A DNA stretch of 64,000 nucleotides from an uncultured Methanomassiliicoccus sp. (GCA_944319735.1 CALUEU010000002.1:186001-250000); one strand, 5' to 3'. Shown: positions 1,173-32,688, counted from the stretch's first letter. Program-made: numbers and translations. The notes: generated by a model not told the origin, from the letters alone.

Positions 1173-2906
1173 GTGAAACACACAGTTACATTTTTCCCAG
1201 GAAACAAAACAGTTGAGGTAGAAGACGGGACCACAGTCTTCAAGGCTGCTGTAGAAGCAGGAATAGAAACTGGAGGAAACTGTGGCGGAACTGGATGCTG
1301 CGGAAAATGTAAAGTTATCATAGAAGGAAAGTGCAGCGGAGAGAAGAATCCTCACATTTCTGATGAGGAATATGCAGAAGGATACAGATTAAGCTGCACA
1401 ACAGAAATAAGGGGAGATCTGACAGTTCTTACCTCAGTAAGCGGAGGAAGTAAAAAAATCGCTTCTTTTTACGATGAAGTAGATGTTTCTGATATTTCTC
1501 CACTAGTGTCTGTAGAAAAAGCAGATGTTCAAAAACCTAGCCTGGATAATTCAGAGGCTGACTTTGAAAGATTAAAGAGGGCGTTAGAAGTAGAAGACCT
1601 GCAGAGTCTGCCGGCGGCTCTTAAAAAGCTGCCAGGAATACTGAGGAGCAATGACTGGAGCATTAAAGTGGCACTCTGTGATAATTCACTGATTGATGTC
1701 ATTCCTAAAAATAAATCAATTTACGGTTTAGCGATAGATATAGGAACTACAACCGTTGCGTTAGAACTTGTTGATCTGCAGACTGGAAAAACAATCGAAG
1801 CGGCATCAGATTACAATCATCAGATAGTCTGCGGGGAAGATGTTGTCTCAAGAATGATCTATGAAGAAGAAAACGGACAAAAAAGGCTGACTGAACTCAT
1901 TCTTGATACAATCAACAGTCTCATCGAACCGTTTAAAAATGAGATTCATGCAGTGTGCATCGGTGGCAATACAACGATGATCCATATGCTTTTAGGATTA
2001 GAAACTAAAAGCATCAGATTTGAACCATATGTTCCTGTAACCAATTTTCCGCCTGTCTGGAGAGCATCGGATATCGGGATAAATGTCTTCTGTGACGCAC
2101 CGGTGTACATAATTCCCGGATGTGCAGGATATGTCGGCGGAGATATTACCGCAGGAGTTCTGGCATCCAATATGCAGCAGTCAGAAAATCCATCACTTCT
2201 CATTGATGTGGGAACAAACGGAGAGATAGCATTAGGATGTAAAGATTGGCTGCTCACCTGTTCAACATCCGCTGGACCGTCGTTTGAAGGCGGAGATGTT
2301 TCATGCGGCATGAGGGGCATCGAAGGAGCAATAGACTGTGTGAAGATTAAAGACGGCAAAGTAGAGTACAGCACAATTGGAAACACTGAAGCAAAAGGCA
2401 TCTGCGGGTCAGGAATTATAGACACTGTAGCACAGCTGTTTCTTGATAAGAAAATAGACAAGAAAGGCAGGATAAAGGGCGGTGTATTCCACCTTACTGA
2501 AAAAATTTCAATAAATGAAAGCGACATCGAGAATATAATCAGGACTAAGGCGGCAATATTCGCTGGCTGCTGTGTTTTGCTTGATGCAGTCAATTTACAA
2601 TTTGATGATCTTGAGAAAGTGTATATTGCAGGTGGATTTGGTAACTACCTAGACATATGCAATGCACAGGTAATCGGACTGCTGCCTCCGATACCACATG
2701 AGAAGTTTAAGCTGCTGGGAAATGCCTCTCTCAGCGGTGCAAAATCGTGCCTTCTTTCCAAAGATAAAAGGCAGAAAGCAGAAGGGATTGCACAATCCAT
2801 GACCTATGTGGATCTGTCATCATCCAACTCATTTTTCGAGCAGTATTCTTCAGCATTATTCCTGCCACACACCAATGAGGAAAGATTTTCCATAACGGGA
2901 AAATGA
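1173..2906 (+). CDS. RACo-like corrinoid protein reductive activator (2Fe-2S plus ASKHA domain)
   Basis: A 577-residue protein with an N-terminal 2Fe-2S ferredoxin domain (C37, C42/C43, C46 and C75, followed by a linker) and a C-terminal ASKHA-type ATPase domain (DUF4445) that starts near residue 187 with LAIDIGTTTVALELVD. This is the architecture of RACo/AcsV and RamA-type activators, which use ATP to return an inactive Co(II) corrinoid protein to Co(I). RamA itself uses C-terminal 4Fe-4S clusters, which I do not see here, so the RACo/AcsV type fits better. It is first of three same-strand genes and its likely target is the AcsCD corrinoid protein encoded opposite. Start is GTG; no ribosome site precedes it, but an AT-rich TTAATATC lies about 25 bases upstream, so the transcript may be leaderless. 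Confidence 0.88.
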   Translation: MKHTVTFFPGNKTVEVEDGTTVFKAAVEAGIETGGNCGGTGCCGKCKVIIEGKCSGEKNPHISDEEYAEGYRLSCTTEIRGDLTVLTSVSGGSKKIASFYDEVDVSDISPLVSVEKADVQKPSLDNSEADFERLKRALEVEDLQSLPAALKKLPGILRSNDWSIKVALCDNSLIDVIPKNKSIYGLAIDIGTTTVALELVDLQTGKTIEAASDYNHQIVCGEDVVSRMIYEEENGQKRLTELILDTINSLIEPFKNEIHAVCIGGNTTMIHMLLGLETKSIRFEPYVPVTNFPPVWRASDIGINVFCDAPVYIIPGCAGYVGGDITAGVLASNMQQSENPSLLIDVGTNGEIALGCKDWLLTCSTSAGPSFEGGDVSCGMRGIEGAIDCVKIKDGKVEYSTIGNTEAKGICGSGIIDTVAQLFLDKKIDKKGRIKGGVFHLTEKISINESDIENIIRTKAAIFAGCCVLLDAVNLQFDDLEKVYIAGGFGNYLDICNAQVIGLLPPIPHEKFKLLGNASLSGAKSCLLSKDKRQKAEGIAQSMTYVDLSSSNSFFEQYSSALFLPHTNEERFSITGK

Positions 2907-2952
2907 ACTCCTAATCGGGAACTATATATCAGATGCTGTTATCTCAATAATT

Positions 2953-3969
2953 GTGGAATGGAATTGTTCACCCAGTTGCATAGGGTCCCTGCCTCATTCA
3001 GACCCGATCAAAGCAGTAGACTTCATACTAAAGCACTTAATTGAAATCCCGCCCTGGCCGCAGCTGCCAATGACTGGATTCAGAGAGAATATGTACATCC
3101 AGTTTTCACAAAACTTACCTGGGATCAAAATTGATGAAGAAAATAAACGTGTCAGCGTTAATCTTCTTGACTATGATCCTGAAGAGATATACATGAAGAT
3201 CATTTCTGAGGACCCGGATATGTTTCCGCTGCCTCCGGAAAACTTTACAGGATTTTACGAGTTTATGAAAAGGGAGCTTTCCGGCTACAAGGCAATAAAA
3301 GGGCAGGTTACAGGCCCGATATCTCTGGGACTGCAGATGACTGATCAGGATGACAAACCTGCAATATATGATCCCACATACGCAGAAATTCTGAGAAAAA
3401 ATCTTCAGTTTACAGCCATGTGGCAAGAGAGAGAGTTAAAAAAGAAGTGCGGAAGAACTATCATCTTCATAGATGAACCGTATCTGAGTATAATCGGAAC
3501 TCCTTTTGCAAGCATATCTCCCTCTGATGCAGTTTCCTGGATTAATGAAGTTGTTTCAGGATTGGAAGATATGAAAGGTATACACTGCTGCGCCAATACA
3601 GACTGGCCACTGGTAATGAGCATGAATATTGATGTATTGTCATTCGATGCGTATGATTACGGATATACAATAGCTCTGTACCCTGAAGAAGTATCTGCAT
3701 TCCTCGAAAGAGGAGGCTGTCTGTCGTGGGGAATAATCCCCAACAATGAAGAAGCTCTGAAAAGCACAGACTGTTCTTCTATCACATCCCACTTCGAAAA
3801 AATTGTTTCTGATCTGGAATCAAAGGGAGTTGACAAGGAGCTTCTTCTTAAGAATTCAATTCTCACCCCGCAGTGCGGGCTGAGCGGATTGAGCGAAGAG
3901 GCCAGTGAAGGGGCGATGGATCTTCTGGTAAATGTGTCTAAAGTCATACAGGAAAAATACTCTCTGTGA
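2953..3969 (+). CDS. Core-MetE (MesD-like) folate-independent methionine synthase, putative
   Basis: A 338-residue protein of the UROD/MetE superfamily, equal in length to the catalytic half of cobalamin-independent methionine synthase and lacking the N-terminal folate-binding half. It has a zinc site typical of MetE: H211 with C213 in GIHCCANTDW, and C308 in TPQCGLSG. The N-terminus (GSLPHSD, IPPWPQLP) is characteristic of this group. Core-MetE proteins of the MesD type are known to take the methyl group from the corrinoid iron-sulfur protein and pass it to homocysteine; the RACo-like and acsCD neighbours support that assignment. An alternative is another corrinoid-dependent thiol methyltransferase. 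Start is GTG at 2953. The stop overlaps the next gene's ATG (TGATG), implying translational coupling. Confidence 0.7.
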   Translation: MEWNCSPSCIGSLPHSDPIKAVDFILKHLIEIPPWPQLPMTGFRENMYIQFSQNLPGIKIDEENKRVSVNLLDYDPEEIYMKIISEDPDMFPLPPENFTGFYEFMKRELSGYKAIKGQVTGPISLGLQMTDQDDKPAIYDPTYAEILRKNLQFTAMWQERELKKKCGRTIIFIDEPYLSIIGTPFASISPSDAVSWINEVVSGLEDMKGIHCCANTDWPLVMSMNIDVLSFDAYDYGYTIALYPEEVSAFLERGGCLSWGIIPNNEEALKSTDCSSITSHFEKIVSDLESKGVDKELLLKNSILTPQCGLSGLSEEASEGAMDLLVNVSKVIQEKYSL

Positions 3970-4727
3970 TGGACATGGGTCGCGTATTTGCAGTAGCTGG
4001 CAAAGGGGGAGTTGGAAAAACAACTATCTCTGCTTTATTCATATCTTATTTAGCAAAAAGAAGCGGGAACATAGTTCTCGGTGTTGATGCAGATCCCAAT
4101 TACAATCTCGGAGACAGATTGGGAATAGAGGTGCAGAAAACAATAGGCGACGTCAGGGAAGAGTTTCAGAAGTCAGCGGATGAAGCGTCAGAAGTGAGCA
4201 AACATGAAAAAGTCGCTTATTATCTTCAAACATCTACTGAAGAAGGACCTAACTTTGATTTGATTACCATGGGCAGGCCCGAAGGAAAAGGGTGCTATTG
4301 CTACATTAATTCCATATTGAGAAATTATTTAGATGAAGCAATAGGAAAATATTCCAATGTCGTAATTGACAACGAAGCTGGAATGGAACACCTATCAAGG
4401 CTGACTTGCAAAAATATGGATGCACTGATGATTGTTACAGATGCCACTGCAGTAGGGTTAAAAACAGCAAAGAGGATACTGGATCTTGCACTGAGTTTAG
4501 ACATAAACATCAAAATAACTGCACTGGTGATTAACAGAGTGCCAGAAGGAATGAAAGTAGAGAATATTCCAGAAGGCTTTTCTGCAGTATATTATATTCC
4601 ATTTGATGAAACAATTAATAAATTAACAATGGATGGAAAAACTCTGGAATTGGAAAGTAACAATGCAGCATATAAAGCAGTAAAAGAACTGGCAGACGAT
4701 CTTTTGATGCGCTGCAAAGAAAGATAA
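3969..4727 (+). CDS. cooC: CooC/AcsF-type nickel-insertion ATPase
   Basis: A 252-residue SIMIBI-class ATPase with a deviant Walker A motif GKGGVGKTT near the N-terminus and a DADPN motif near residue 40. The GKGCYCYIN segment supplies the CxC pair (C109, C111) that binds metal between two CooC monomers. CooC proteins help insert nickel into CO dehydrogenase, and AcsF/CooC paralogues into acetyl-CoA synthase. Since no CODH gene is present in this window, the A-cluster of the AcsB encoded nearby is the likely client. The start overlaps the preceding stop by one base; a GTG at 3966 is an alternative. It converges on acsC, separated by only 14 bases. Confidence 0.85.
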   Translation: MDMGRVFAVAGKGGVGKTTISALFISYLAKRSGNIVLGVDADPNYNLGDRLGIEVQKTIGDVREEFQKSADEASEVSKHEKVAYYLQTSTEEGPNFDLITMGRPEGKGCYCYINSILRNYLDEAIGKYSNVVIDNEAGMEHLSRLTCKNMDALMIVTDATAVGLKTAKRILDLALSLDINIKITALVINRVPEGMKVENIPEGFSAVYYIPFDETINKLTMDGKTLELESNNAAYKAVKELADDLLMRCKER

Positions 4728-4741
4728 AAAATTAGAAAAAA

Positions 4742-6064
4742 TTAAAGGTTTTTCAGGATTTTTGGAATGCCGGAGGATTCTCTTGGACCTACCACAACAT
4801 TCATTCCACTCAGTTCCTGAAGTTTACCTGACATTCTTGAAAGCATTCCCGGCATGATCACTGGGCTGTTGCCGCATTTAGTCTTGGCATCCACATCCTC
4901 TAAGGATTTAGCAACTTTCTCAGGCGTGAGCTTTCCGGCAGAGAATGCTGTCATTACAGACAGACCTTCTGTGTCTACAACCAACAGCCAAGCAGGAATC
5001 TTTGATTTTTCGATATCTCCCAGAACTGTAAAGTATGTTAAAGAAAAGTTAGTAGTAAACAGCAGCGGAGAGCCCTCGGTAGGATTGTTGACAGGATATA
5101 TTCCAGACTTCACCTGTATAGGCACCTGCGGATCGGTGAATATATTCTGACGCAGAACAAATAACGGCAGTGCCTGTGACGGTTTTAGATCCTCTAAAAG
5201 AACGATTCCACCGTATTTCATGGTGGAAACCATTGCTGTCTGTACAGGGTCTTTCACATTGCGTGCATCGGTAATGATCGGATATCCCAGACCGCGGAAT
5301 GTTTTCTTTACTGCATTTTTTCTGACGATTGTATTCTTTTCCACTACCTGCTGGAGTGAAGATGTTTCCAGATCAAGCATTAAATCTTCAACACCTGCAG
5401 CCTTAGCCTTTTCAACCATTGCTGCAAGTTCAGACAGGTCTGATTCTTTCAGAACTAAAGGACATTTTGTTTCTTTAGCAACATTAATCATTTTGTCAAG
5501 ATTGTTTTTATTAGCCGCATGCAGTAAAGGCTTTTTTGAAGATATTAGAGAAGCAGCGGCTTTCATTGACTGATCATCAGAAGATATGAGAACTAAAGGA
5601 AGGTCTGTTTTAGAAGCTGTGTAGTTACATACAGATGAAAATGTTTCACTGTTTCCAGACTTATCCTCGATTGCAATCATATCAAGACGCAGGATCTGAC
5701 CGACACGTTCAAACTCCAGTTTAGAAAACTCATTCAGCTTACTATCAATTTCAGTCTCTGAAAGTGTGTCCTGGATCGTAAGCGCGTAGCAGGTAGGATG
5801 AAAGAACTTCTTCTCATGACGGTACAGCTCTGTTTCTTCACCAAGCTCTATCTTTTTGTCTCCTGTACCCACAGACACCAGACGGATAGGCGGCGCAGAA
5901 GAGGATTCCAGCGCGGCTTTTGCTTCGTCGGATACAAAGGGACAGGCAGAGAGTTTTACCTTCTGGTTGGCAAGCTGCATAGCAAATGCCAGACATGTCG
6001 GGAATCCGCATTTTCCGCAGTTTGATTTTGGAAGAAACTTAAAGATTTCAATAGCAGTGGGCAT
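4742..6064 (-). CDS. acsC: Corrinoid iron-sulfur protein large subunit (ACS gamma subunit)
   Basis: Large subunit of the corrinoid iron-sulfur protein that carries the methyl group on cobalt to and from the A-cluster of acetyl-CoA synthase. The N-terminal 4Fe-4S motif is intact: C16, C19, C24 and C41 in the order CGKCGFPTC and ACPF. A TIM-barrel and C-terminal corrinoid-binding region follow; total length of 440 residues is normal. ATG at 6064 is chosen because AGGTG lies six bases ahead; a GTG three codons upstream is possible. The start lies within two bases of the acsD stop, so the pair is coupled. Last gene of acsB-acsD-acsC. Confidence 0.93.
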   Translation of the reverse strand: MPTAIEIFKFLPKSNCGKCGFPTCLAFAMQLANQKVKLSACPFVSDEAKAALESSSAPPIRLVSVGTGDKKIELGEETELYRHEKKFFHPTCYALTIQDTLSETEIDSKLNEFSKLEFERVGQILRLDMIAIEDKSGNSETFSSVCNYTASKTDLPLVLISSDDQSMKAAASLISSKKPLLHAANKNNLDKMINVAKETKCPLVLKESDLSELAAMVEKAKAAGVEDLMLDLETSSLQQVVEKNTIVRKNAVKKTFRGLGYPIITDARNVKDPVQTAMVSTMKYGGIVLLEDLKPSQALPLFVLRQNIFTDPQVPIQVKSGIYPVNNPTEGSPLLFTTNFSLTYFTVLGDIEKSKIPAWLLVVDTEGLSVMTAFSAGKLTPEKVAKSLEDVDAKTKCGNSPVIMPGMLSRMSGKLQELSGMNVVVGPRESSGIPKILKNL

Positions 6065-6065
6065 T

Positions 6066-6962
6066 TTATTCACCTCTCAAATCACGGATGGCGTCATAGA
6101 CTATTTTTGCAGAATTTTTATTCCTAACAATAACTATATCAGCTCCAGACATCAAAGCCGCAAGAGCAGTAGCCACTTCCCACCACATTCCACGTTCATC
6201 TGCATCTCCCCAAAGTGGGTTGTCGTCTGTCGCTTCTCTGGCATCCCATGCTCCGGTAGAATCGCAGATCATTGCCGGTTGCAGCATGCGGTCGTTCATC
6301 AAAGCAGCAATACGGATTCTTTCATTAACTGAATATGAGTATTCCAGACCCATTCCCAGACCGGCCATCAAAGGATCCATGATGACATTGTCAAGTTTGA
6401 CTCCAAAATCATTAAGCAGAATGTTCATCTGTTTTGCCAGATTAATATCCAGATTAGAAAAGGCTACAATTCCATGGCCGTTTGCAGTTGCTGCGGCGGA
6501 GATACTCTTGTAAGTATTCTCATTGGCCTGCCCGATTATTAGTCTTTCAGAAGAGCATAGATTACTCACAGCTTCCAATACTTTAGGATCCTTCTCTTCG
6601 TTTCCACAGCCGTATACTATCACCGGCACATCAACAGCATCGATGACTTCCTTAGCAGTCTTGGCAGCATCTTCTGGAGAAGTATTTTTACGTTCAGGAT
6701 CAGTAGACAAAAGTTTGAGGCAGATTAGATCAACACCGCACTCATTGATCCATGCTTTCGCCTGATCTACAGGGTTTTCTTTACAAAAATCAGCTATCTC
6801 TGGATCATCGATAACTTCACCTGCTACCAGCTGGCGTCTGCCCAATCCTTCGTAAGAAAGGAAGGGCATTCCGCGCTCCCCGCCGACAGAAATGTCAGAA
6901 GAAAGTGGAACTTCAGTTATTTTTCCAGACCATTTTTCTTTAGGAATCGGTACTTCGGGCAT
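6066..6962 (-). CDS. acsD: Corrinoid iron-sulfur protein small subunit (ACS delta subunit)
   Basis: Small subunit of the corrinoid iron-sulfur protein, a TIM-barrel protein that forms a heterodimer with AcsC and helps hold the corrinoid between them. At 298 residues it is close to bacterial AcsD (about 320) and shorter than archaeal CdhD (about 400 or more). Recognisable segments are VPVIVYGCGNEEKDP (about 115-129), the DNVIMDPLMAGLGMGLEY barrel strand and loop (about 192-209) and the C-terminal MSGADIVIVRNKNS (about 274-287). It lies 17 bases after acsB and abuts acsC, so the three genes form one operon. Confidence 0.92.
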   Translation of the reverse strand: MPEVPIPKEKWSGKITEVPLSSDISVGGERGMPFLSYEGLGRRQLVAGEVIDDPEIADFCKENPVDQAKAWINECGVDLICLKLLSTDPERKNTSPEDAAKTAKEVIDAVDVPVIVYGCGNEEKDPKVLEAVSNLCSSERLIIGQANENTYKSISAAATANGHGIVAFSNLDINLAKQMNILLNDFGVKLDNVIMDPLMAGLGMGLEYSYSVNERIRIAALMNDRMLQPAMICDSTGAWDAREATDDNPLWGDADERGMWWEVATALAALMSGADIVIVRNKNSAKIVYDAIRDLRGE

Positions 6963-6979
6963 AGATTAACCTTCATATT

Positions 6980-9115
6980 TTACTGTAATAAGGGCGGCAT
7001 AGATAACGCTGGATGATTGACTTCAGTCATCCAGTTTATCAGACCCTCTGCATCTGTAGTGATCGTTTCATCTGCAATTTTATCAACAAAATCCGGGATT
7101 CCCAGATCTTCAGCTCTCTTCTGCAGCTGTTCCCTCATGGATTCTTTCAAGTCTTTAGGCATCCAGGCGATTCTGAGGAATCCCCCGTCTGCAGGGATGA
7201 ATTTCTTACTAATGAGATAATTTCTGCCGATGCCCATGAAGCCGGGAGTTTGTTTTCCCCCTCCGACTGAGCCTGCCAACGTAGAGAATTTCATTCCTAC
7301 AGGAGTCATTCCGCCATATTCTCTATTTACAGCGAAAATAGCCTGCATGTCGCTTGTCATGCCGATGATTACTTCAAAACATCCGCATGAAGTCATAGGA
7401 TCTTCCATCATGCTGTAGGTATTTACCCTCTCCAGCTTGTGATTAGAACCTTCATAAACGGCATCATTCACGCCTGACCATTGTCCCCTTTCAGAATCAA
7501 TCACTTCGTTCTTGAGAACAGCCTGATTGGGGCCGTGGGGATCTATTTCCTGAGCGGCTTTAGCGTCAAGCCAATTGATGGCGCCGCAGAGTCCTAGCCT
7601 TTCAGGCATAATGATACATATGTGGTCTGGAGCAAACGAGCTGCAGAGGCCGCATGTGAAGAATCTATCTACACTTTCATCAGTAAGGCCGGCAAGCCTA
7701 GCATCTCTGAAAGCGTATCTTTCCAAAGCTTCTGGAAGCCTCTTTTTGATTTCTTCTTCATCAGTGATTATTGTTACCTGTACTCTGCTGACAATGGAGC
7801 TGAATTCTTCTTTCAGCTTGGTAATGAGGATGTTTCCAAAATGCTTGAGACTCACACCTGAACGTACAGCGTTTTTACTCAGCCTGATCCAATTGAGATT
7901 GCGCTGCCCAGTGTGCCATATTCCCTGTGCAAAGTTGAGGAATAAGTGAATCCTCCTTTCGAGGACAGATTCAAAATCTTCCTGCATCTTCTTACCGTAA
8001 ACATCAACCAGTATCGCTAATGGTGTGGCAGAGCCTTCTTCAAACTCACTAACGTCCTTTCCTATCAGCGTGATCTTACCGTCTTCCACTTCAGATTCGC
8101 TGCGCATTCTCAAAAGTTCAAAGACTGCAGTTTTGGAAGAGCCTCCTGCTTCTAAGTATGTATCAGGCTTTCTGATGCTTTCTCCTTCAAAAGCAGGTCC
8201 GTATGCCACAGGAATATCCACAGGAGCAAGATTTACAATGATATCTCTCAGCTCTATTGCCGCCTGCACCATCTTGGCAGGATCTGAATGTGAAAGAACA
8301 CCTGGTATCTCTTCTATGTCCTGATCTGCAACTATGACGGCTTTGTTGATTACCGCAGCCATTGCTGCAGCGGCAGAGATGTCATCGATCTTTCCGAATG
8401 AAAGTACAAAAACCTTGGGCCTTTTTGACAAGTATTCCACAAGCTCGTCTTCACACCCTCGGCCTATCGCACCAAATGAAAGAGCGGCCCTTATTGTAAA
8501 GTTTACTGCATGGATTATTTGGGTTCCAGGCCCAATGGGAAATAGCATCAGTTTTGCACCCATCTGTACATTCTTGTCATTCAGCTGATCTGCAATGTTC
8601 CCGGCAGCAAATGTCAGAATGCCTTTAGACTGCAGATCCCTGACCATTTTTACCAATTCATCTGGATCAGGAGCCGTACCAGTTAGAACTGCAGCTCCTG
8701 GAATGGTGTCGTCTACAAACGCTACACCAAATTCTCTCAGAGTCTTGTCAGGAATGAAGCCGCAGTAAGGTGTGTCCTCGTAAGGTTCGGAAAACTGTAC
8801 ATACTTAAGAGCCTCTAGAATCTCCGATGAAACCATTGCTAGCTTTCCCGCAATAACGGCATTTTCCAGAGTAGGCTCGTCTGAAGGCACTTCTAGATTA
8901 TTCAAAACATCCCTGAGGTCCTGAACTGTTTTAGAGCTGTTTCCCAGCCATGAATAGATCGTTGGAAGTTCATAACATGTTTCAGGGTATTCCACGGCTT
9001 GGTCTGGATCACTGATGCGTTCAAGTTCACGCATAGCCAATGATTTCAATTCTTTTGAGCCTCTGACAGCTGCGCTGAAAAGATCTTCGTTTGTGACTTT
9101 TCCCCCTGAAATCAT
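6980..9115 (-). CDS. acsB: Acetyl-CoA synthase catalytic subunit, bacterial-type full length
   Basis: A 711-residue acetyl-CoA synthase that assembles or cleaves acetyl-CoA from CO, a methyl group and CoA at a nickel-nickel-4Fe-4S A-cluster. All A-cluster ligands are visible: C488, C491, C500 and C510, and the C577-G578-C579 motif. Their spacings (3, 9, 10 and 67 residues) equal those of Moorella AcsB (C506, C509, C518, C528, C595, C597). Archaeal CdhC lacks the roughly 300-residue N-terminal domain that docks CODH in bacterial enzymes; that domain is present here, so the gene looks bacterial in type. An AGGAGG site precedes the ATG by six bases. First gene of acsB-acsD-acsC, with its own AT-rich upstream region (about 9165-9185). 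Confidence 0.95.
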   Translation of the reverse strand: MISGGKVTNEDLFSAAVRGSKELKSLAMRELERISDPDQAVEYPETCYELPTIYSWLGNSSKTVQDLRDVLNNLEVPSDEPTLENAVIAGKLAMVSSEILEALKYVQFSEPYEDTPYCGFIPDKTLREFGVAFVDDTIPGAAVLTGTAPDPDELVKMVRDLQSKGILTFAAGNIADQLNDKNVQMGAKLMLFPIGPGTQIIHAVNFTIRAALSFGAIGRGCEDELVEYLSKRPKVFVLSFGKIDDISAAAAMAAVINKAVIVADQDIEEIPGVLSHSDPAKMVQAAIELRDIIVNLAPVDIPVAYGPAFEGESIRKPDTYLEAGGSSKTAVFELLRMRSESEVEDGKITLIGKDVSEFEEGSATPLAILVDVYGKKMQEDFESVLERRIHLFLNFAQGIWHTGQRNLNWIRLSKNAVRSGVSLKHFGNILITKLKEEFSSIVSRVQVTIITDEEEIKKRLPEALERYAFRDARLAGLTDESVDRFFTCGLCSSFAPDHICIIMPERLGLCGAINWLDAKAAQEIDPHGPNQAVLKNEVIDSERGQWSGVNDAVYEGSNHKLERVNTYSMMEDPMTSCGCFEVIIGMTSDMQAIFAVNREYGGMTPVGMKFSTLAGSVGGGKQTPGFMGIGRNYLISKKFIPADGGFLRIAWMPKDLKESMREQLQKRAEDLGIPDFVDKIADETITTDAEGLINWMTEVNHPALSMPPLLQ

Positions 9116-9211
9116 TGGTGGTCCTCCTGCACCGGATACGATGCGCTTAGGATATATGGAGAATGGGGGTTAATTAATATCCCCCTTTCAAAACTAAACG
9201 GTTTAAAAAGA

Positions 9212-10138
9212 TCAGATGGAAATATTTTCCATCTTGATCAGCTCAAACCTGCCTTTTGCAGATGCAAATGCAGATTCCAGATCAGATTTGACTGCATCAA
9301 CATCCTTTGAACATCTTGCATCTGCAACAATATCCAGCGACATTGAATCGTTGTATATCATCACATCTGAAGAAATAGAAATTATGTTCACATTGTGATT
9401 GGCTAGAGTATCAATGATTAACCCCACTGCACCAGGCTTGTCAGGAACGATGAATTTGAAACTAATCGGCTTAATGTCCAGTGGCAGGAATGTCACTGAA
9501 AGTGCATAATTATCCTGATCATCCACCATGAGAACAGGCTGGCCGCTTTGGATATCCCCCATTTCCTCAAGGAAATCTGGAGGGATCTCAAACATGCCGT
9601 CTTTCATTGGAGAAGGTGATTTTTCCTTCTGCTTGATTGTTTTAGCAATGATGTTGCCGCATTTTCCTGCTGAGCCTGTGGTGTAACGTTCGGAGATCTT
9701 AGAGGTCTCTAAATCCATTGAATTTATTTTATCAACTTTGGCAGAACCCATTCTCTTCATTGATGCAAACTCTTCGATCAGTTCGTCCGGCTCGCCGAAA
9801 TAAGAAATATCAGCCAGCATTCTCCAGATCATTGCTTTGTGGGGAATTGTTGTTAAAGAGCTTGAGTTGAGGATGTCGACATCGCGGTCGGATAAAAACT
9901 TTGAAACCTGAGCGCATGCTCCGGGCTGGTCTTTCATGTAAAAGGTCAGCTGGCAGATCTGTTTGTAATTCTCTGGACCGAAGTTCGAAAGAACTAGTTC
10001 ATAAGATCTGGATTCGCCGTCGTCATATCTGAACAGCACACTAAAAATCTGACTTCCATCTACAAGTCCTAGATATTCTCCAATCTTACCTATGTGAATT
10101 TTACCATTGTCAATTCTTCCGAGTTGCCAGTGTCGCAT
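9212..10138 (-). CDS. Tandem ACT-domain protein upstream of acsB
   Basis: A 308-residue soluble protein with two recognisable ACT-type ligand-binding modules, one near residues 60-130 (CQLTFYMKDQPGACAQVSKF) and one at 220-300 (FKFIVPDKPGAVGLIIDTLA). The middle region holds a short IPPDFLEEMGDIQSGQPVLM segment that resembles a small beta-barrel of the SpoVT/AbrB type, but I am not sure of that. I see no catalytic domain. ACT domains usually sense amino acids; with a methionine synthase-like gene in the cluster, a sensor or regulator of this module is a reasonable guess. It is 96 bases upstream of acsB on the same strand. Confidence 0.7.
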   Translation of the reverse strand: MRHWQLGRIDNGKIHIGKIGEYLGLVDGSQIFSVLFRYDDGESRSYELVLSNFGPENYKQICQLTFYMKDQPGACAQVSKFLSDRDVDILNSSSLTTIPHKAMIWRMLADISYFGEPDELIEEFASMKRMGSAKVDKINSMDLETSKISERYTTGSAGKCGNIIAKTIKQKEKSPSPMKDGMFEIPPDFLEEMGDIQSGQPVLMVDDQDNYALSVTFLPLDIKPISFKFIVPDKPGAVGLIIDTLANHNVNIISISSDVMIYNDSMSLDIVADARCSKDVDAVKSDLESAFASAKGRFELIKMENISI

Positions 10139-31392: not shown

Positions 31393-32688
31393 TTATTGGA
31401 CTTTTTCCCATTTTTCTAATTCCAACACTTTAGACAGGGTGCTGCCCTTTTTTATCTCTTCGCGGATTCTGTTTTCCCTTTCGGCTACATCAACCGAGCG
31501 GTTGGCGATTTCAGTGGCTTTTTCCTGAGGTACTACAACTACACCGCAGTCATCACCGATTATCCAGTCGCCAGGCTTTATCGTTAATCCTCCGCAGATT
31601 ATGTTGTGGCCTATGCCGCCATATCCTTTGGGTTCACTGGCATTCGGGACTGAATATCTTGAGAAAGCAGGAAAGCCCATTTCATAAATTTCATCCATAT
31701 CCCTGATTGCTCCGTCAATTACTACGCCTTTTATGCCTTTGGATATGCAGCTCCAAGCAGCCAGAGCACCAAATACAGCTGTATCTCCTCCGCCTACATC
31801 GATAACTAAAACATCTCCTTCTTTGGCTTGGTCAATCGCTTCCACCGGTTTTGCCCAGTCTCCGTTTACAGTCTGGACCGTAAGAGCGCGACCGATCATT
31901 TTGGTGCCAGGTTTATTCCTGGGAACTATTCCCGATAGAACCCCAGTCCTATGCATGGCGTCAGAAATATTCGCTGTTGAAGCAAGAGCAAAGGCGTCAT
32001 ATAATTCATCAGAACCATATTTCTTCGCAACATTGGATGTTACACTTTTATGCGTAGCCATTGCAGTTTTCATGTCCTCTGTGGCCTGGCACACATCCTT
32101 GGCTTTGATTATGCTGCCCCCGGCAATGATGATGGATGCACCTGAATCCAGAAGTGCAGGTGCTGTGGTCTGCGTGATGCCCCCGGCCACTGCTACTGGA
32201 ATGGATACTTCAGAAACTATCTGTTTTAGAATATCAACTGGAGAACTTTCTCCCCTCATCTGCTGGTCTATGCCGATGTGCAGACAGATATACGAGACTC
32301 CAAGCTTCTCTGCAGTCTTAGAACGTTCTACTCTGTCATTGACTCCTATCAGATCAATCATTATTTTGGATCCATATTGCATTGCGGAAGTGACTGCTTC
32401 TTCAATAGTGCTGTCATCAGCCAATCCAAGAATTGAGACGATGTCTGCACCGGCTTTAGAAGCTATTTCAACTTCTGTAGCACCTACATCCATGGTCTTC
32501 ATATCAGCAATTATAGTGTGTCCCGGGAAAGCTTTCTTTAACTCCCGTATAACATCCGATCCTTCGGACTTAATCAAAGGCGTGCCGGCTTCAATCCAGT
32601 CTGCACCGCCCTTTACTGCTTCCGCAGCAATTTCAAGAGCTCTTTTTTTATGCATAAAATCAAGAGCTACTTGCAGGACAGGTTCCAT
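31393..32688 (-). CDS. Hexulose-6-phosphate synthase fused to RraA-like domain
   Basis: A 431-residue two-domain protein. Residues 1 to about 210 are a TIM-barrel of the OMPDC superfamily matching hexulose-6-phosphate synthase (LDFMHKKRALEIA, GTPLIKSEG, DMKTMDVGATEVEIASKAGAD), which condenses formaldehyde with ribulose 5-phosphate or runs in reverse. Residues 220-430 are an RraA-like fold (TGVLSGIVPRNKPGTKMIGRA, GDVLVIDVGGGDTAVFG, GVVIDGAIRDMDE). This fusion is widespread in methanogenic archaea. The usual explanation is synthesis of ribulose 5-phosphate from hexose when the oxidative pentose pathway is absent; the RraA half's role is not known. Confidence 0.9.
   Translation of the reverse strand: MEPVLQVALDFMHKKRALEIAAEAVKGGADWIEAGTPLIKSEGSDVIRELKKAFPGHTIIADMKTMDVGATEVEIASKAGADIVSILGLADDSTIEEAVTSAMQYGSKIMIDLIGVNDRVERSKTAEKLGVSYICLHIGIDQQMRGESSPVDILKQIVSEVSIPVAVAGGITQTTAPALLDSGASIIIAGGSIIKAKDVCQATEDMKTAMATHKSVTSNVAKKYGSDELYDAFALASTANISDAMHRTGVLSGIVPRNKPGTKMIGRALTVQTVNGDWAKPVEAIDQAKEGDVLVIDVGGGDTAVFGALAAWSCISKGIKGVVIDGAIRDMDEIYEMGFPAFSRYSVPNASEPKGYGGIGHNIICGGLTIKPGDWIIGDDCGVVVVPQEKATEIANRSVDVAERENRIREEIKKGSTLSKVLELEKWEKVQ

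Follow-up and report, generated by a model that had tools for sequence, protein, structure and literature searches.

Acetyl-CoA synthase (ACS) acting without carbon monoxide dehydrogenase (CODH) in methyl supply is already known from Dehalococcoides mccartyi, in which labelling identified acetyl-CoA as the methyl source (work cited in PMC7857596 and PMC7005905). Also known are the core methionine synthase MesB, a tetrahydrofolate (THF) methyl branch and CODH/ACS within the order Methanomassiliicoccales. Price et al. 2021 (PMC7857596) describe this order as possessing MesB only, which fits the corrinoid iron-sulfur protein (CoFeSP) predicted as methyl donor. Because that prediction was made in 2021, the link between MesB and CoFeSP in Methanomassiliicoccales is prior knowledge. 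Here we describe a seven-gene cluster in a 64 kb stretch of DNA (the window, G000:C2:186001-250000) that encodes ACS, both CoFeSP subunits and a MesB-type core methionine synthase (core-MetE), in a genome in which CODH was not detected. This genome, G000, comprises 1.77 Mb in 21 contigs and is 99.55% complete. It carries mcrA, and the closest relatives of its AcsB by identity belong to named Methanomassiliicoccales metagenome-assembled genomes (MAGs; 54–67%); the host is therefore a methanogen of this order.

The cluster is arranged as two convergent operons whose ends lie ~15 bp apart. The minus-strand operon encodes an ACT-domain protein, AcsB, AcsD and AcsC, and the plus-strand operon encodes a RACo-like activator, core-MetE and a CooC-like ATPase. 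All seven genes, listed as intact in the earlier note, are indeed intact open frames, and family scans and fold agree with their assignments. AcsB (6980..9115, minus strand, 711 aa) is a bacterial-type ACS that scores 914 bits against NF040764 (cut-off 800), contains a CODH_A_N domain and matches CO-methylating acetyl-CoA synthases in the PDB with E about 1e-221. Its A-cluster is conserved at all seven positions (C488, C491, C500, C510 and C577-G578-C579). AcsC, the large CoFeSP subunit (4742..6073, minus strand), combines a 4Fe-4S domain with a CdhD-family corrinoid domain, shows the motif C-x2-C-x4-C-x16-C and exceeds its NCBIfam cut-off (PRK04165, 560 bits against 306), as does the small subunit AcsD (6066..6962, minus strand; PRK04452.1-2, 307 bits against 280).

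Core-MetE (2953..3969, plus strand, 338 aa) gave no match in a Pfam scan and a weak one in NCBIfam (E 7e-7), and a sequence search of the PDB returned one chance match and no relative; fold comparison resolved its identity. The AlphaFold model, with a predicted local distance difference test score (pLDDT) of 92.6, is a single domain with the MetE catalytic fold and no N-terminal folate domain. Its best PDB folds in Foldseek were MetE catalytic domains and 3RPD, the structure of MesD, with E about 1e-9 to 1e-10. Six residues are invariant in an alignment of 16 homologues, some of them located in bacterial acs clusters: the predicted zinc ligands H211, C213, D232 and C308, and the predicted homocysteine contacts S12 and D174. 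These positions differ by a uniform offset of −3 from those given for D. mccartyi MesB (zinc, 214, 216, 235 and 311; homocysteine, 15 and 177) in PMC7857596, where the zinc ligands of MesB are described as HCDC/HCEC. CoFeSP, expected alongside MesB, is encoded in the same cluster by AcsC and AcsD. MesC does not fit, as its zinc spacing (204/206/225/314) sets Asp and Cys 89 residues apart, where the distance here is 76. The earlier note had assigned the protein to the MesD type, an assignment that residues and spacing overturn; moreover, MesD is described in PMC7857596 as restricted to aerobic bacteria with MesX and as requiring O2, which does not fit a gene inside an ACS/CoFeSP cluster of an mcrA-carrying methanogen. 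Judged by its residues and predicted fold, core-MetE is MesB-type.

CODH (CooS/AcsA/CdhA) was sought with PF03063 and TIGR01702, which matched nothing in the window or in the whole of G000 while positive controls were recovered; the lack of cooS/acsA reported earlier for the 64 kb thus extends to the genome. Neither PF02574 nor PF01717 revealed another methionine synthase in G000, with the limit that PF01717 does not recognise core-MetE either and would overlook a second synthase that had diverged as far. The only pterin-binding proteins are a probable dihydropteroate synthase of 285 aa and the methyltransferase AcsE, and on account of their short length there is no full-length MetH. These profile searches leave core-MetE as the sole candidate for a methionine synthase in G000, and the juxtaposition on which the earlier note rested, ACS and CoFeSP without CODH beside a core methionine synthase, holds.

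To place the cluster within the order, we compared 147 genomes of Methanomassiliicoccales, using tables assembled by hand. AcsB occurs in 71 of them, core-MetE in 72 and both in 64, a co-occurrence (Fisher p 2e-24) far stronger than that between core-MetE and CODH (p 1e-8); neither value is corrected for phylogeny. At least 14 CODH-less genomes of ≥90% completeness carry both AcsB and core-MetE, including the single-contig genome G135. The constant part among genomes with the module is AcsB, AcsC, AcsD, core-MetE, RACo and CooC. It is accompanied by CODH and the methyl branch (for example in G001, G004, G018, G022 and G134), by the methyl branch without CODH (G000, G015, G017, G020, G023, G110, G111 and G135), by neither (G112–G117, and probably also the less complete G025, G048 and G051), or by CODH without AcsE, MetV and methylenetetrahydrofolate reductase (MTHFR) (G047, and the fragmented assemblies G013 and G014). 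Every full locus fetched shows ACT-AcsB-AcsD-AcsC facing CooC-MesB-RACo, whether CODH is present or not. Such conservation of gene order and co-occurrence throughout Methanomassiliicoccales takes the observation beyond chance. When AcsB from 26 genomes of ≥95% completeness was placed on a tree, CODH presence changed about 7 times, with several nodes weakly supported. In G119 and G121, AcsC, AcsD and core-MetE are jointly missing from an otherwise syntenic locus, and ACT-AcsB faces CooC-RACo in the same place (L177:7714-12978 and L178:6478-11742, respectively). The AcsB of G119 is itself divergent, with CSC instead of CGC. Two apparent cases of MesB without ACS were dropped: in G136 the contig ends within AcsC, and in G027 core-MetE lies ~0.85 kb from a contig end.

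The retention of the ACS cluster without CODH suggests that an old carbon-fixation machinery is probably now a supplier of methionine methyl groups. We consider it fairly probable that the module serves anabolic methyl transfer, with AcsCD as a hub that feeds MesB and receives methyl groups from acetyl-CoA via ACS and/or from methyl-THF via AcsE. The module would then be a remnant of a bacterial-type Wood-Ljungdahl carbonyl branch after CODH loss. AcsCD, the CoFeSP, would serve as the methyl hub, its cobalt reactivated by RACo, while the CooC-like ATPase would load nickel into ACS; MesB would carry the methyl group from CoFeSP to zinc-bound homocysteine as the sole methionine synthase of the host. 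Two filling routes are conceivable. AcsB could cleave acetyl-CoA to methyl, CO and CoA, in which case the CO would escape from the cell, there being no CODH to use it. Alternatively, AcsE could methylate CoFeSP with methyl-THF that Fhs, FolD and MetVF produce.

The genes for the second route are present in G000. Fhs (C2:283689-285335), HdrA/VhuD-like proteins, MetV, MetF (the MTHFR, C2:289373-290242) and AcsE are encoded at C2:283.7-291.0 kb, ~95 kb from the cluster on the same contig, and FolD at C5:147043-147918. MetV, the VhuD-like and HdrA-like genes and Fhs adjoin MTHFR. AcsE (258 aa) lies near it on the opposite strand and scores 292.6 against the cut-off of 259 of the curated family, defined as methyl-THF:corrinoid/iron-sulfur protein methyltransferase. 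With these genes encoded, methyl-THF can also fill CoFeSP in G000; G020 and G135 likewise carry the branch with AcsE. MtrH, considered as a donor route from methyl-THF or methyl-tetrahydromethanopterin (methyl-H4MPT), was rejected, being absent from G000. A methyl-branch gene had also been expected between RACo and core-MetE in relatives, where the gap holds S-adenosylmethionine-methyltransferase-like or other genes, judged by eye. The earlier note had reported no acsE in the 64 kb, which is correct for that stretch and does not hold for the genome, and had inferred that methionine is made without a pterin methyl branch, which the genes on C2 and C5 contradict. The genome-wide search it proposed went against it on the methyl branch and in its favour on CODH and a second methionine synthase, neither of which was found. 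Its literal scenario, acetyl-CoA as methyl source without a methyl branch, fails for G000 and fits the gene content of G112–G117.

With a complete branch in G000, G020 and G135, methyl-THF alone could feed methionine via Fhs, FolD, MetVF, AcsE and MesB, leaving the CODH-less AcsB as a remnant or idle. However, AcsB is intact, with all A-cluster ligands present, and no CODH-less genome clearly keeps AcsCD and MesB without AcsB, the sole candidate being G027 with its nearby contig end. The opposite of what this explanation predicts is seen in G112–G117, six genomes of one sister genus that retain Fhs and FolD, lack CODH, and kept AcsB while losing AcsE, MetV and MTHFR. We regard supply by methyl-THF alone as unlikely. 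The searches of G112–G117 uncovered no way of making methyl-THF from formate or serine, which makes acetyl-CoA the plausible methyl source there. Since AcsB and MesB are kept where AcsE, MetV and MTHFR are lost, we judge AcsB cleavage of acetyl-CoA to be the conserved methyl source. In G000 either source could operate, and the sequence by itself does not decide between them.

Acetyl-CoA cleavage might even supply the whole one-carbon pool. In this scheme CoFeSP would pass methyl groups through AcsE to THF, and MetVF, FolD and Fhs would oxidise them to methylene-THF and formyl-THF, serving the synthesis of serine, purines and formate in addition to methionine. This extends the preferred explanation and does not exclude it. 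AcsE is reversible in acetogens, its gene in G000, G020 and G135 has purH-like genes (recognised by eye) in the neighbourhood, and MTHFR is confined to genomes with core-MetE (48/48). On the other hand, Fhs can feed the pool straight from formate, the MetVF/HdrA complex might run in either direction, and the scheme fails for G112–G117, which lack AcsE; we consider it rather doubtful.

Anabolic methyl transfer fed by acetyl-CoA cleavage also faces arguments against it. The methyl branch of G000 (AcsE, MetF, MetV, Fhs and FolD) could by itself serve CoFeSP and MesB, and its AcsB might use external CO or be dispensable. Without a CO sink, cleaving acetyl-CoA to free CO is energetically unfavourable, and CO is an inhibitor of hydrogenases. 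Use of external CO would mean that AcsB makes acetyl-CoA from methyl-CoFeSP and environmental CO, with methionine as a side branch. The fold and A-cluster of AcsB are wholly preserved, G000 can provide methyl-THF, and ACS chains have been solved without CODH in the deposition (1ru3 and others), all of which would be compatible with synthesis. Yet most anoxic habitats contain little free CO, genomes without the methyl branch would have no methyl source, and genes for taking up or sensing CO were not identified, although no search for such genes was made. Methanomassiliicoccales are, in addition, reported with acetyl-CoA synthetase for acetate use (PMC7824343), and synthesis from external CO appears very improbable. 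As to the cleavage direction, we see evenly balanced chances that several methanogen lineages independently dropped CODH and run ACS backwards, venting CO to obtain the methionine methyl group, with this as its sole biosynthetic source in G112–G117.

Three further genes belong to the cluster. The RACo/AcsV-like corrinoid protein reductive activator (1173..2906, plus strand, 577 aa) has a 2Fe-2S domain and matches Pfam RACo_C_ter (E 6e-85), Raco_middle, RACo_linker and Fer2; against the AcsV model it scores 560 bits, under the cut-off of 800. The CooC/AcsF-like P-loop ATPase (3966..4727, plus strand), related to CbiA/ArsA/NifH and carrying the motif GKGGVGKT, keeps its position beside core-MetE in relatives. 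It is probably a nickel insertase, and since the genome lacks CODH this putative insertion would be directed at ACS. The ACT-domain protein (9212..10138, minus strand, 308 aa; Pfam ACT, E 4e-12) immediately precedes acsB in the majority of the f1 and f5 genomes examined, and is a candidate amino-acid-sensing partner of the acs operon. Elsewhere in the window, a gene at 31393-32688 resembles hexulose-6-phosphate synthase of the ribulose monophosphate pathway type, judged by eye.

AcsB itself varies within the order. Several Methanomassiliicoccales, among them G001, G004, G005, G125, G130, G132 and G134, encode CODH and ACS as one continuous CooS-AcsB polypeptide of ~1360 aa (for instance at L131:11032-15102, L132:9021-13091, L048:8063-12133 and L010:8066-12139). 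An N-terminal extension of ~300 aa is found on AcsB at L135 (G142), L124 (G143), L006, L007, L008, L013 and L050. The end of this extension aligns with the C-terminal portion of CODH in the fusions (hhalign probability 96.9, E 1.9e-10, 131 columns), so that these proteins apparently carry the decayed remains of a CODH domain in front of an intact ACS. The AcsB at L133 (G104) has a different 300-aa N-terminal extension, for which a single-sequence search detected no CODH relation. In G015 (L128:11200-14989), AcsB carries a 540-aa in-frame insertion exactly at the cysteine equivalent to C491 of the window protein, starting with CVPAGEDVML and ending with HNYTINGIVVKN before C; it is apparently an intein, and a frameshift downstream of it may be an assembly error. 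For the CODH-facing N-terminal half of AcsB in CODH-less genomes, three-taxon counts hinted at relaxed selection in G000 (55 versus 26) and G135 (57 versus 12) and gave no such signal for G017, G020, G048 and G143. Significance was not reached in a comparison over the whole tree (p 0.076), in which one outgroup was wrongly chosen and one sequence carried a frameshift.

Taken together, ACS in Methanomassiliicoccales appears separated from carbon fixation. It follows methionine synthase and not CODH, so the presence of acsBCD is no sign by itself that an organism is autotrophic. The natural combinations with or without CODH and methyl branch suit tests of methyl donation from CoFeSP to MesB, and methionine synthesis in H2-dependent methylotrophic methanogens becomes testable by labelling. 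The module may also be a hint that methanogens release CO. In mostly open-access literature, we found no report of methanogens that repeatedly lost CODH while retaining an ACS-CoFeSP-MesB cluster.

Several described systems share parts of this arrangement. The MALP MAG (PMC6147122) and an order-wide survey (PMC10804542) likewise describe Methanomassiliicoccales that combine ACS with a THF methyl branch; MALP, however, has CODH, and is discussed for acetate disproportionation with no methionine role given (PMC6147122). The MesB survey scored Methanomassiliicoccales as Wood-Ljungdahl-positive by acsBCD/cdhCED (PMC7857596), whereas the present work separates loss of CODH from loss of the methyl branch. 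Methanimicrococcus and Methanolapillus resemble the window host as methanogens without CdhA and CdhB that keep part of the complex, but they belong to Methanosarcinales and partly keep the H4MPT branch, and their loss is explained only by acetate auxotrophy (PMC11362671). The arrangement also resembles that of D. mccartyi, whose incomplete Wood-Ljungdahl pathway, according to PMC7005905 and PMC7857596, comprises AcsB and AcsCD without CODH, Fhs and FolD, and a MesB-type core-MetE as sole methionine synthase. The window genome shares these features, with core-MetE as its sole candidate for that enzyme. D. mccartyi lacks AcsE and MetF in those accounts, whereas the window genome has both and G112–G117 have neither. 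In further contrast, the window host is a methanogenic archaeon with its genes in one conserved cluster. If acetyl-CoA cleavage is indeed the methyl source, G112–G117 would be an archaeal counterpart of Dehalococcoides.

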